Part shown: in pieces, positions 53,799 through 57,375 of the stretch
How the letters are laid out: every line of letters starts with the position of its first letter
Numbering within the stretch: position 1 is the stretch's first letter
IMG/VR virus record: IMGVR_UViG_3300027816_000108
Coordinates: 1 to 63,869 of that record
Length of the DNA: 63,869 nt
Origin: a virus
Strand: one strand, 5' to 3'
The notes under the pieces: generated by a model
Databases searched by the model: none
What the model was told of the DNA's origin: nothing
What the model saw: only the letters and a program-made list of their open reading frames with translations
Program-made: the position numbers and the translations under genes

Positions 53799-54467
53799 TC
53801 AACGTATTATTTGGAATAGCAAATCCTCAGTTACCTGACTTGGGGGACAATGCAAATCCCCCTGCAATGTTATGAGTTTAGCCCCGTTACCTACCATTAC
53901 TTCGCTTTGTTTGTAGTGAACAATAGTGTCGTCTTTATAATGAATCAATGTTACGGGGCAATCGAACTTATGGTCTGATACATTCACATCCCCATAGGTA
54001 CGGGCAACACCCAATAGTTTACTACACAGCCAATCGTTTGTATTGGATATAGTGGCAACACATATCACCCCCTCTACCCTGTTCTTGCTTGCGTAGTTCA
54101 ATACAATATTAGTACCTGCACTTTGCCCGACTAACCACACCCTTTTAATACCCATTGATTTCAGGGCAGCAATAGCGTTGGTTATATCCTCAAGCATACT
54201 ATCAGATGTTGCGGGTAAAAACCTATAATTCATAGCCGCATAGGAATATCCCCTTGATTTGATTAGGGGTTTGATATACTCCCAATCAGACATATCACCC
54301 GATACCCACGCACCACCATGTACAAATAGGCAACAGGTTTCACCCGTTAATTGATACGTCATAACCTGACGTTCATGTTGCCCGTATCTCAATACGGATT
54401 GGGTTTCTTTTTCTTTGGCGCACCCAATAAGGAACGGCATAATTAAAAATAATATTCTTTGTAACAT
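53799..54467 (-). CDS. Lipoprotein alpha/beta-hydrolase (esterase)
   Basis: A 222-residue secreted enzyme. It has an N-terminal signal with lipobox LIGC (C16 would be lipidated), then oxyanion-hole motif HGGAW (50-54), nucleophile elbow GQSAG with S116, acid D180 (HYKDD) and H206 (GDLHCPP). The set matches acetyl-esterase or carboxylesterase families. It would act at the envelope, perhaps altering surface glycan acetylation and so blocking superinfecting phages. The gene stands between the cassette array and the NinG-like genes. Confidence 0.8.
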   Translation of the reverse strand: MLQRILFLIMPFLIGCAKEKETQSVLRYGQHERQVMTYQLTGETCCLFVHGGAWVSGDMSDWEYIKPLIKSRGYSYAAMNYRFLPATSDSMLEDITNAIAALKSMGIKRVWLVGQSAGTNIVLNYASKNRVEGVICVATISNTNDWLCSKLLGVARTYGDVNVSDHKFDCPVTLIHYKDDTIVHYKQSEVMVGNGAKLITLQGDLHCPPSQVTEDLLFQIIR

Positions 54468-54507
54468 AGTTTTAATTAATATTTTGGTTGTATGGATTTT
54501 GGCTACT

Positions 54508-54558
54508 GATAATCAACTAATTACAATTCAAGGTGCAAGAAGCAGGTAGTTATGTGCC
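54508..54558 (-). repeat. attC-like site E (end of cassette 5)
   Basis: On the minus strand it begins with GGCACATAAC (54558-54549), the exact complement of the cassette-5 start, and ends GTTGATTATC. It shares ~84% of ~49 bases with the site at 8365-8414. Confidence 0.6.
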
Positions 54559-54560
54559 AT

Positions 54561-55115
54561 TTAAAGAACGACACTGCTCTCAACTTCATTTCCCCAAACA
54601 TCCCAACCATTTCTCGGATAACGGCAGAAAAGTTCAACTCTTGGTAAATCACCAAACAACAGTTCAATTCGCTCAATCGCTTCAATAGGTTTCTTACTAT
54701 GTTTTGTTCTTTCTGCTTCTATTAGTTGAAAAATGTTGTTTGCTTTTTTGTGTTGCAACATATTACCTTTTGCACCTAAAATACACACCTCACAGTTTTT
54801 CATTGTCCACGCCCCAACATTTGCACAAGTATTGCCTTTATTGGTTATTTTCTTCCAAATAAAAACTATTGTTCGGTATGTAAAGCCCCACGCTTCTATT
54901 AATTCAATCCCTTCTTTTAGGTGGCTATCTGTTACCCATAAAAATAAAGCACAATCTTTGTCTGCAATATCTTTTACTGGTAATTGTTGCAACTCTTTTT
55001 TTGTCATCGTTGGGTATTGCTCATCTATAAGTCGGTCTTTTCTGCCGTTATCCTGATAAACCCCTTTGTTAAATCCCCAAGCTGGGTCTGCATAAATTAT
55101 TTGATATTTCTTCAT
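54561..55115 (-). CDS. MT-A70-type N6-adenine DNA methyltransferase (cassette 5)
   Basis: A 184-residue enzyme. Motif IV is DPAW at 10-13, followed by FLWVTDSHL (~58-66), WGFTYRTIVFIWKK (motif V-like) and KNCEVCILGAKG, the usual MT-A70 order. It transfers a methyl group from SAM to adenine N6, probably in DNA. Its stop lies two bases before the cassette end. It has no restriction partner, so it may mask phage DNA from host restriction. Confidence 0.85.
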   Translation of the reverse strand: MKKYQIIYADPAWGFNKGVYQDNGRKDRLIDEQYPTMTKKELQQLPVKDIADKDCALFLWVTDSHLKEGIELIEAWGFTYRTIVFIWKKITNKGNTCANVGAWTMKNCEVCILGAKGNMLQHKKANNIFQLIEAERTKHSKKPIEAIERIELLFGDLPRVELFCRYPRNGWDVWGNEVESSVVL

Positions 55116-55145
55116 ATTTATAAATTAAATTCGTGAATAAAAAAC

Positions 55146-55245
55146 GGCACATAACACGGTATATAAGCAAGTTTGCCATCAAGTTTATCGGTAATTTGAA
55201 ACATTCTGCAAGGCAAACCTGCTCATATACCCACCGTTAGCACCC
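55146..55245 (-). repeat. attC-like site D
   Basis: Minus strand: GGGTGCTAAC (55245-55236), then GTATATGAGCAGGTTTGCC, a loop with TTGCAGAATGTTTCAA, the return arm GGCAAACTTGCTTATATAC, and GTTATGTGCC (55155-55146), which opens cassette 5. The loop motif recurs in site B. Confidence 0.65.
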
Positions 55246-55473
55246 ATTGTAGAAATAATCCACATTGAAGCTAATAGTTAATATTCTACCATCATATCTA
55301 AATTGGTGGTTAATGTACTTTTCCCCTTTTACAATCGTTTTACCAGTTCCGTAGCATTGTCGCTTTCTGTTACTTGTTCTCTCAGTCGTAGAGCGTACAT
55401 TATCAAAAACAACGGGTGCTAACAGCGTATATAAAACATTACTGGGTTGTAGTTTTTTGTTACTGTGTGCCAT
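55237..55473 (-). CDS. Cassette 4 protein, start inside preceding attC-like site
   Basis: A 78-residue frame. Residues 1-18 (MAHSNKKLQPSNVLYTLL) are encoded by the arm of site C, and the cassette begins at codon CTG|TTA. The cassette part contains RKRQCYGTGKTIVKGEKYI and a beta-rich end. There is no in-frame ATG after the boundary, so the product would carry the site-encoded leader. Function unknown. The cassette-1 gene has a similar leader. Confidence 0.5.
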   Translation of the reverse strand: MAHSNKKLQPSNVLYTLLAPVVFDNVRSTTERTSNRKRQCYGTGKTIVKGEKYINHQFRYDGRILTISFNVDYFYNGC

Positions 55474-55550
55474 TTTATAAGTTTTTTATTGTTGTCAATA
55501 TTTTTGTGCTTTTCATACGCAACGTTTCATATACGAAAAACGTTACCTGC
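55414..55550 (-). repeat. attC-like site C (long form)
   Basis: Minus strand: GCAGGTAAC (55550-55542), an arm with CGTATATGAAAC, a long A-rich loop with an ATG followed by GCACACAG, a return arm with GTTTTATATACG, and GTTAGCACCC (55423-55414). The loop resembles that of site S0 and supplies the start codon of the cassette-4 frame. Confidence 0.6.
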
Positions 55551-55555
55551 AAGTG

Positions 55556-56395
55556 CTACATTTCGTTTCCAAATAGAGTTTCTGCCTGTAAATCTTTTTC
55601 TTTTCTTTTTTCTTCCCTCGCTTTTTTAATACGTTCTTCAATAATATTACAGTATTCATTTGATAATTCACTTCCAATAAAATTTCTATTACTTAAAATA
55701 CTCATTTTTGCAGTAGTTCCACTTCCCATAAAGCAATCATAAACTAAATCATTTTCATTGCTCCAAGTTATAATGTGGTCTAAACATAATTGTTCTGGGA
55801 ACATTGCAGGATGTTCAAAAGCAAAAGTATCTGATGTTGTATTTCCTTTCCCTGTTGCATATTCCCAAATATTATATCTATACCCAAGTTCTTCAACTAA
55901 TCTTTGTTTTCTATCTCCAAGTACGCCATCCTTTTCTCTTACGGTTGTTTTGCCAAACGTATAAGTTCCTCCGTATTTATTTTTTCTATCTTTTATTAAG
56001 TTAGTTGTTTTCGGTTTGCCTTTGCTTAATACAAACATAAATTCAATAGCATCTCTATATCTTCCTTTATGTGGCAATCCTCCGCTTGTTTTAGAATAAA
56101 TCATTGTGTCATAGACATTAAATCCGATACTTTGAAAATATAAACATTGTTTAAATGATGTAAGGCTTTTATTTCCATTCACAGTAGCATCTTTTACAAC
56201 CCAAATAACAACTCCACCTTGTTTGGTTATTCTATATAATTCTTTTGCAATATCCTCAAATGGAAATGAATACCCCTTGTAATCTCTTAAATTATCGTAA
56301 GGTGGAGATGTTACTGTTAAATCCACAAAACAATCGGGCATTTTTGCCATTGTTTCTAAATTGCTTTCATTATAATTCTTGTTTATCTCAATCAT
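55556..56395 (-). CDS. Site-specific DNA methyltransferase, TSPPY type (cassette 3)
   Basis: A 279-residue amino-methyltransferase of the circularly permuted (beta-group) order: motif IV TSPPY at 29-33, then the target-recognition region, then DCFMGSGTTA (motif I) at about 220-229 and GSELSNEYC. It methylates adenine N6 or cytosine N4; TSPPY does not decide which. It ends a few bases before the cassette end GCAGGTAAC. No restriction gene is linked. Confidence 0.88.
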   Translation of the reverse strand: MIEINKNYNESNLETMAKMPDCFVDLTVTSPPYDNLRDYKGYSFPFEDIAKELYRITKQGGVVIWVVKDATVNGNKSLTSFKQCLYFQSIGFNVYDTMIYSKTSGGLPHKGRYRDAIEFMFVLSKGKPKTTNLIKDRKNKYGGTYTFGKTTVREKDGVLGDRKQRLVEELGYRYNIWEYATGKGNTTSDTFAFEHPAMFPEQLCLDHIITWSNENDLVYDCFMGSGTTAKMSILSNRNFIGSELSNEYCNIIEERIKKAREEKRKEKDLQAETLFGNEM

Positions 56396-56493
56396 TTTTT
56401 TAAATTTTTCAAATTAATATTTACCATCGCACAAAAAAGAAAAGAAAAAGCGTTTGCGTTCCAATTCAAATTATGTGGTAATAATCCGCACCA

Positions 56494-56590
56494 GCAGGTA
56501 ACAGCGTATATAAGAAATGGCACATAAACATTTGTGCTAACTTTCAACATTCTACAAGTGCCACTTCTTATATACGCAAAACGTTAGGTT
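56494..56590 (-). repeat. attC-like site B
   Basis: Minus strand: AACCTAAC (56590-56583), GTTTT, arm GCGTATATAAGAAGTGGCAC, a loop with TTGTAGAATGTTGAAAG, arm GTGCCATTTCTTATATACGC, T, then GTTACCTGC (56502-56494). The arms differ by a few unpaired bases, as in integron attC hairpins. Confidence 0.65.
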
Positions 56591-56611
56591 CAATTAAATT
56601 ATTGTTTTGAG

Positions 56612-56971
56612 TTATTTAATAAATTTACATCTAACCCAATAAAGTGTCATATTAGGTTCGTGCTGTGTATGTAGTGAATAAAAAAAACATTTAGTTGCCC
56701 CTTTCTTTTCATATTCTTCAATATCATCTTGGAATTGTTTTAAATCCTTATACATCTTACTTTCCACATATAACTCGCTACCATTATATTCAAATTTAGG
56801 TGTAGTTACTTGAATTATTTCTAATTTAGGTTTTAATGTAACCTCGGATTGACAAAACCATTCCCCATTTATTAAATAGATGTTTTGGTCTGTATCCCAC
56901 TCTATTTTTTTAATTAAACCTTCAAATAATCTATCGCCAGATTTTACAATAACTAAATCTTTTTCTTTCAT
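56612..56971 (-). CDS. Cassette 2 hypothetical protein
   Basis: A 119-residue protein beginning with a small beta barrel-like part (VIVKSGDRLFEGLIKKIEWD) and ending with an aromatic stretch. No family was recognised. Its cassette ends are complementary over eight bases, then with three mismatches over a further ~18, so inverted repeats frame the gene closely. Confidence 0.6.
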   Translation of the reverse strand: MKEKDLVIVKSGDRLFEGLIKKIEWDTDQNIYLINGEWFCQSEVTLKPKLEIIQVTTPKFEYNGSELYVESKMYKDLKQFQDDIEEYEKKGATKCFFYSLHTQHEPNMTLYWVRCKFIK

Positions 56972-57005
56972 AATTTTTTTATATGGTAAAACAATAATTT
57001 AACAA

Positions 57006-57063
57006 AACCTAACAAATGATAAACAACATTAAAACGATTGTTTATCATCAACCGTTAGCGGCA
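57006..57063 (-). repeat. attC-like site A (short form)
   Basis: Minus strand: TGCCGCTAAC (57063-57054), arm GATGATAAACAA, short loop, arm TTGTTTATCATT, then TGTTAGGTT (cassette-2 start GTTAGGTT at 57013-57006). Outer CTAAC and GTTAG pair. Confidence 0.65.
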
Positions 57064-57064
57064 A

Positions 57065-57271
57065 TTACTTCTGCACCATAGTATAAGGTCGATATTCGCC
57101 ATTCACATTCAATCTATCTAACAATCTTTTCACTCTTTCATAAGTTCTCGGTGTTACAGCCCAATCATCAGGCATCTCAATACCGTCCTTATCAAGTATC
57201 TTCCATGTAACTGCCGCTAACACATTATTTGCGTCAGTGTGGGCGATGTGCTTTTTAGAATCTGTGTGCAT
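57065..57271 (-). CDS. Cassette 1 protein, start inside preceding attC-like site
   Basis: A 68-residue frame. The first ~16 residues (MHTDSKKHIAHTDANN) come from the arm of site S0; the cassette begins at GTG|TTA, so GTG at the boundary is an alternative start. The cassette part reads AAVTWKILDKDGIEMPDDWA, then a helical stretch. Unknown function. The leader resembles that of the cassette-4 frame (both have KK at 6-7 and a following NVL). Confidence 0.5.
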   Translation of the reverse strand: MHTDSKKHIAHTDANNVLAAVTWKILDKDGIEMPDDWAVTPRTYERVKRLLDRLNVNGEYRPYTMVQK

Positions 57272-57349
57272 ATTTTGAACTTTAGTTTGTTAAACAATCT
57301 TTGGTGGTGTAATGCCCCACCGAACGCAAATAATCGGAACGTTATGGCG
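57212..57349 (-). repeat. attC-like site S0 (long form, array entry)
   Basis: Minus strand: CGCCATAAC (57349-57341), arm with GATTATTTGCGTTCGGTG, long A-rich loop containing ATG and CACACAG, return arm with CACTGACGCAAATAATG, then GTTAGCGGCA (57221-57212). No cassette start complementary to CGCCATAAC was found upstream, so this is the array's entry edge. Confidence 0.55.
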
Positions 57350-57375
57350 AAATTCGCTTCGCTTTACGGTAGTAA

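Follow-up and report, generated by a model that had tools for sequence, protein, structure and literature searches.

In integron cassettes the recombination site attC lies 3' of the gene, and the gene is on the attC top strand. This orientation is deemed fixed by the way integrons work: with attC after the gene, insertion at attI places the gene under the integron promoter. A cassette array is expected to end in a hairpin on the side away from attI and to lack one on the attI side. The closest systems described are the 17 integrase-less integron cassette arrays (CALINs) reported in phages by Qi et al. in 2023. These authors pointed out the methyltransferase cargo, which Polaribacter phage P12002L also carries, obtained recombination by IntI1 for five of six phage attCs, and took the divergent attC directions in P12002L as possible mosaicism (PMC9892861). 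Here we analyze virus record IMGVR_UViG_3300027816_000108 over its positions 1 to 63,869 (63,869 nucleotides, the window), which carries an array of five cassettes with inverted genes. We put at roughly 85% the probability that this integrase-less array was captured by site-specific recombination at folded attC sites, an explanation that is read from sequence. A preliminary description of the array had recognized its integron-like boundaries but overlooked the inversion of the genes relative to the attC sites, as well as the existing 2023 account of such phage CALINs.

Results

The array runs from position 54549 to 57350, through the end of its fifth hairpin. The preliminary description had it start at 54508, but the first unit starts at 54549 and no attC-like feature was seen between these positions, on the left flank. 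The ten boxes reported as exact complementary pairs were all found in place and pair within units (54549-57221; Table 1), with 32 matching bases besides the invariant GTT/AAC. The unit ends obey the R'/R'' boundary rule of integron cassettes, as had been proposed, and the spacers are attC-type hairpins: A1 to A4 form the joints between successive units, and the last unit is followed by another complete hairpin, A5 (57212-57350). As expected of a CALIN, the array contains five exact pairs of complementary boxes, R' of the GTTRRRY type and R'' of the RYYYAAC type, each pair specific to its cassette. It also contains five imperfect-hairpin attC sites with the AACG bottom-strand signature, where at least two are required, A2 being weak. 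The intI gene and attI site that stand beside the array in a complete integron are absent from the record. The window array is a CALIN in a phage, a known kind of element.

Box-pair chains linked by hairpins were searched by dynamic programming, with 60 first-order Markov-shuffled windows as controls. The array scores 40.4 with five linked units, versus at most 9.2 in the shuffled windows and 6 elsewhere in the window. An earlier link count gave four consecutive links in the array versus zero to two isolated ones in 20 shuffles. Complementary ends at a similar frequency around random genes, which the preliminary description had named as fatal to its proposal, were thus not seen, and a chance origin of the box and hairpin chain is excluded. 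Each unit was also closed on itself as a free cassette, and its bottom (minus) strand was folded and z-scored, a check that had been suggested beforehand. Closure lengthens the hairpin by 8 to 10 perfect pairs between R'' and R' (z-scores of units 1 to 5 in Table 1). The outer box of A5, GTTATGGCG (57341-57349), is unpartnered. An Rfam search of the window returned no matches.

Table 1. Boxes, attC hairpins and cassettes of the window array; z, z-score of the closed-cassette fold.
Feature	Position	Strand	Description
Unit 1 boxes	54549 / 55146-55155		GTTATGTGCC / GGCACATAAC
Unit 2 boxes	55236 / 55414-55423		GTTAGCACCC / GGGTGCTAAC
Unit 3 boxes	55542 / 56494-56502		GTTACCTGC / GCAGGTAAC
Unit 4 boxes	56583 / 57006-57013		GTTAGGTT / AACCTAAC
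Unit 5 boxes	57054 / 57212-57221		GTTAGCGGCA / TGCCGCTAAC
attC A1 of cassette 1	55146..55245	-	5' of gene; closed-cassette fold -25.0 kcal/mol, z -6.0
attC A2 of cassette 2	55414..55550	-	z -1.8
attC A3 of cassette 3	56494..56590	-	z -8.8; homologous site in LR745206, 77% identity
attC A4	57006..57063	-	short subtype; loop ACATTAAAACGA on +; unit 4 z -6.5; seen in other phages and Bacteroidota genomes (alignment)
attC A5 of cassette 5	57212..57350	-	terminal hairpin, transcription-upstream array end; z -4.2
Opposite array end	54500..54549	+	hairpin-free; presumed insertion point between ...AGCAGGTAG and TTATGTGCC
Cassette 1 body	54549..55155	-	open reading frame 54561-55115, MT-A70 type DNA methyltransferase, 184 amino acids; Pfam MT-A70 E=2.5e-31; phrog_359 E=6.7e-72
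Cassette 2 body	55236..55423	-	open reading frame 55237-55473, 78 amino acids, unknown; start within A2 loop, stop within R' box
Cassette 3 body	55542..56502	-	open reading frame 55556-56395, N6_N4-type DNA methyltransferase, 279 amino acids; Pfam E=5e-40; phrog_67
Cassette 4 body	56583..57013	-	open reading frame 56612-56971, 119 amino acids, unknown
Cassette 5 body	57054..57221	-	open reading frame 57065-57271, 68 amino acids, unknown; start within A5 loop

The box pairs are symmetric and thus mute on cassette direction, and it is the attC that gives polarity. The rule was taken from arrays adjacent to intI (loci L041, L043 and L047), in which the strand reading RYYYAACG is the bottom strand and the genes lie on the opposite one; class 1 type attCs in L234 follow the same rule. 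In the window the AACG signature of all five attCs falls on the minus strand, where the genes also lie, so that none of the five cassettes has the canonical arrangement and all are inverted. A lone end hairpin upstream of the first gene is found in the window (A5) and in phage arrays L001, L002, L006 and L008. We consider it highly probable that, in contrast to bacterial cassettes, every cassette of the window carries its gene on the bottom strand of attC, which places attC upstream of the gene and makes that strand the sense strand.

The short attC subtype to which A4 belongs, with its conserved loop, also occurs in P12002L and in the huge phages LR745206 (634-kb) and LR756500 (462-kb), all three with the same inverted design. 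A pattern scan of IMG/VR contigs located this subtype in no fewer than 120 stretches, so that the 17 CALINs reported in 2023 are probably only a small part of the cassettes carried by phages. A search of Bacteroidota genomes, as the preliminary description had suggested, recovered A4-homologous attC sites in Flavobacteria and other Bacteroidota by pattern and alignment; 34 of 219 genomes from the family of Aureibaculum carry the short subtype. The pattern scans detect this one subtype only; for the others, polarity was read from the AACG signature at a small number of loci.

Orientation was counted for the short subtype in attC-flanking cassettes with a matching box of at least 8 bases and the stop codon of an open reading frame near one box. 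Viral contigs yielded 80 inverted cassettes and 1 canonical one (51 loci) versus 0 inverted and 36 canonical in Bacteroidota genomes (29 loci). The contrast is significant (Fisher p = 2e-29, cassettes sharing a locus not being independent) and still near total when counted by locus. A first pass under looser rules gave inverted to canonical ratios of 87:3 in viral and 1:15 in bacterial sequences. Viral and bacterial cassettes were compared over one and the same oriented sequence, so the contrast does not depend on which strand is named bottom. The inverted form is thus the rule in the viral cassette pool, huge phages included, for this attC subtype. This form and its near-exclusive viral occurrence are what is new here. 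Twenty-nine "canonical" units from an unfiltered set were left unused, several being terminal units read on the wrong strand (for example, L008 9692 = 4217), and were replaced by the oriented census.

P12002L carries several inverted cassettes at an early-gene boundary. Apart from this array, a lone canonical cassette (L055:14505-15197) with an open reading frame of 93 amino acids lies antisense among late genes. An inverted array together with a canonical late cassette fits the remark of Qi et al. on divergent attC directions. Tetrasphaera phage TJE1, an actinobacterial phage, appears canonical from one attC read by eye; inversion is therefore not universal. An exact-match array finder returned nothing in PH101 and MW202573, two phages from Qi et al. 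On the bacterial side, three inverted cassettes were observed beside a chromosomal intI (L042:6049-7400) as exceptions to the polarity rule, two of them with identical boxes and open reading frames of equal length. Inversion thus occasionally occurs in bacterial integrons too, with another attC subtype.

Mobility was addressed by comparing homologous cassettes from different viral contigs on both sides of the gene. Between L123 and L127 a 39-base hairpin is 100% identical and the gene product 86% identical; between L101 and L126 the hairpin is 85% and the gene 90% identical. The hairpin common to each pair is the one 5' of the gene, similarity ends at the AAC of both core sites, beyond which it is at background level, and the neighbors are unrelated. 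L073 and L101 are 98% identical over the hairpin and the beginning of the open reading frame and differ in the remainder of the gene, so genes can also be swapped behind a constant attC. Units of inverted design thus move with their ends at the core sites, as seen in these relatives, and the window's own cassettes presumably do likewise. One relative of the window phage (terminase 69% identical) is without the array, at odds with the scenario, raised in the preliminary description, of the same genes in all related phages and no empty site. Searches for further relatives through the neighboring genes found none in the viral scan for the DnaA-like gene and only 28-38% identity for the NinB-like gene.

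Start codons often lie within the hairpin. Translation of units 2 and 5 would begin in the attC loop, where their start codons lie, and the frame then crosses the arm of the hairpin and the R'' box. A start codon within the attC was counted in 48 of 172 viral units of the unfiltered set. In one family of attC hairpins from viral cassettes (L073:1834, L101:5599, L065:3773 and L108), the loop contains the start codon and the hairpin encodes a conserved N-terminal peptide, some 25-34 residues long (MSKEMRQHIDKFNKFKLTESENLNISDV...), which is joined to varied C-terminal parts.

We then looked for the enzyme that could move the units. As the preliminary description stated, the record is without an integrase: no tyrosine recombinase was found in it (no PF00589 or TIGR02249 match), and none above cut-off was found in six other array-bearing phage records, including two huge-phage genomes. 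True IntI genes do exist on IMG/VR contigs (80 best loci, L225-L304). No inverted short-attC array was seen in these 80 loci, all of which were covered by array scores and 23 by motif and short-attC counts. Counted over all frames, the IntI-specific motif occurs in 31 of these 80 best loci on contigs classed as viral, mostly with no array found nearby, and some of the viral-contig IntI genes lie close to the end of their contig, a position typical of a prophage integrase. Among bacteria, an integron integrase above the curated cut-off is present in 105 of 395 genomes from a sample of the phylum to which the short-attC bacteria belong. This share is high and worth setting against published surveys. 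The proposal of the preliminary description that the cassettes were moved in trans or by an unknown enzyme is endorsed, and a host IntI acting in trans is the likely mover.

Each unit of the array contains one open reading frame, with its stop codon 1-29 bases from the left box. The five frames, all on the minus strand, comprise two methyltransferases and three unknowns, in agreement with the preliminary description. DNA modifiers account for 12 of the 31 viral cassette proteins of at least 110 amino acids (N6_N4 6, Mom 2, D12 2, MT-A70 1, C5 1), a tally of family matches that assumes each protein counted once. This methyltransferase-rich cargo most likely shields phage DNA from restriction. 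The record is that of a phage, with a recognizable large terminase, primase/helicase, exonuclease and NinB-like protein, whose host is probably a member of the Bacteroidota. The array is situated among leftward early genes, adjoining the NinB-like and DnaA-like genes. Cassette genes are co-directional with neighboring genes in 222 cases versus 30, and are probably expressed by read-through from these phage genes. Cassette-borne promoters were considered and rejected: a first-look enrichment of the Bacteroidota -7 promoter motif TAnnTTTG (28 of 79 versus 9 expected) did not hold up on stricter leaders (9 of 54 versus 3.8 expected, shuffles reaching up to 10), and no promoter is claimed. Just downstream of the array, the minus strand encodes a 222-residue alpha/beta hydrolase with a lipoprotein-like signal (LIGC; 53799-54467), an unusual phage cargo.

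Discussion

The match between R' and R'' and the hairpin anatomy suggest that each cassette was captured as a circle, through recombination at a folded bottom-strand attC hairpin, most likely by an integron integrase that the host supplied in trans. Why the genes are inverted is a matter for speculation. Inversion may leave the phage genes running in one direction and yet make the bottom strand the sense strand. The recombinogenic strand would then be exposed during transcription as the non-template strand and, if the genes point along the replication fork, during replication as the lagging-strand template. Excision in Vibrio cholerae rises sharply when the bottom strand of attC is put on the lagging-strand template (PMC11023631). 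More tentatively, and with somewhat less than even odds, Bacteroidota phages including huge ones may draw in common on inverted cassettes of their own, a dedicated pool separate from that of bacteria. In such a pool attC would act both as recombination site and as 5' leader, often with the start codon, on a sense strand exposed by phage transcription or replication, and the cassettes would be moved by a host or unknown recombinase during infection.

Several observations weigh against this explanation. No integrase linked to any inverted array was seen, and most short-attC genomes in the first bacterial sample have no IntI above cut-off. The fold of A2 is the weakest (z -1.8), the only weak unit of the five. 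Finally, no exact empty site was found, the sole relative, with its 69% identical terminase, being too distant.

Other explanations of the array and of its polarity must be compared with capture at folded attC sites. Lone box-pair links do arise by chance, at zero to two per shuffled window, but chance inverted repeats and transcription terminators between phage genes are a next to impossible source of a five-unit chain scoring 40.4 against at most 9.2, and homologous units with sharp boundaries are present in unrelated contigs. The inversion itself might be only apparent if the array were an ordinary CALIN of canonical cassettes that had lost its terminal attC. Symmetric box pairs alone do not reveal polarity, and a decayed attC could be what stands at the left end of the array in the window. 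This is very improbable given the AACG bottom signature on the gene strand at all five attCs, the orientations of 80:1 in viruses versus 0:36 in bacteria, the 5' hairpin that co-travels with its gene, and the same end pattern in five phage arrays.

A selective origin of the pattern deserves more weight, although we hold it to be unlikely. Cassettes would be acquired in both orientations, and selection alone would retain the inverted ones, which can be read in a phage operon. The co-direction of cassette genes with their neighbors is as expected under such selection, as are the one canonical cassette of P12002L, placed antisense within the late region, and the apparently canonical TJE1. Yet free cassettes that are mostly canonical would normally build arrays the opposite way, and the bacterial sample holds no inverted source pool (0 of 36). 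Selection moreover accounts for retention and not for origin, and is compatible with capture at folded attC sites. As for the enzyme, a non-integron protein recognizing similar hairpins, such as a phage protein specific for inverted cassettes, would agree with the lack of a tyrosine recombinase in the window or, above cut-off, in the six other phage records, and with the near absence of inverted cassettes from the sampled bacterial genomes. It is nevertheless improbable: the attC subtype, core sites and AACG signature match those of bacterial cassettes, and IntI1 recombined phage attCs, including one of the two tested from P12002L (PMC9892861).

We found no description of systematic cassette inversion in the open-access PMC papers searched. 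A near-uniformly inverted viral pool implies that the recombination sites of bacterial integrons serve viruses too, but by other rules and with expression of the genes from phage operons. Tests thereby become possible of how phages trade anti-restriction genes, of whether host integrases serve phages, and of how recombination is shaped by strand exposure.

The window array resembles the phage CALINs of Qi et al. (PMC9892861) in being an integrase-less attC array with DNA methyltransferase cargo, the phages of that study being virulent. P12002L comes closest, with the same short attC subtype at a similar place in the genome. What was not described there is inversion as the rule for viral cassettes of the short subtype, huge phages included. 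Bacteroidota cassettes (L009, L011, L177-L197 and L305-L351) share with the viral ones the attC subtype, the core sites and the R'/R'' rule; their gene is on the top strand with attC 3' in 36 of 36, whereas the viral cassettes are inverted in 80 of 81. Treponema integrons likewise depart from the usual orientation, but there it is intI that is reversed relative to the array and the cassette genes keep one direction (PMC3607928). In V. cholerae, the sedentary chromosomal integron inverted relative to replication showed that exposure of the attC bottom strand governs the recombination rate. In that case the whole array was inverted in the laboratory (PMC11023631), whereas in the window it is the gene within each cassette that is inverted.

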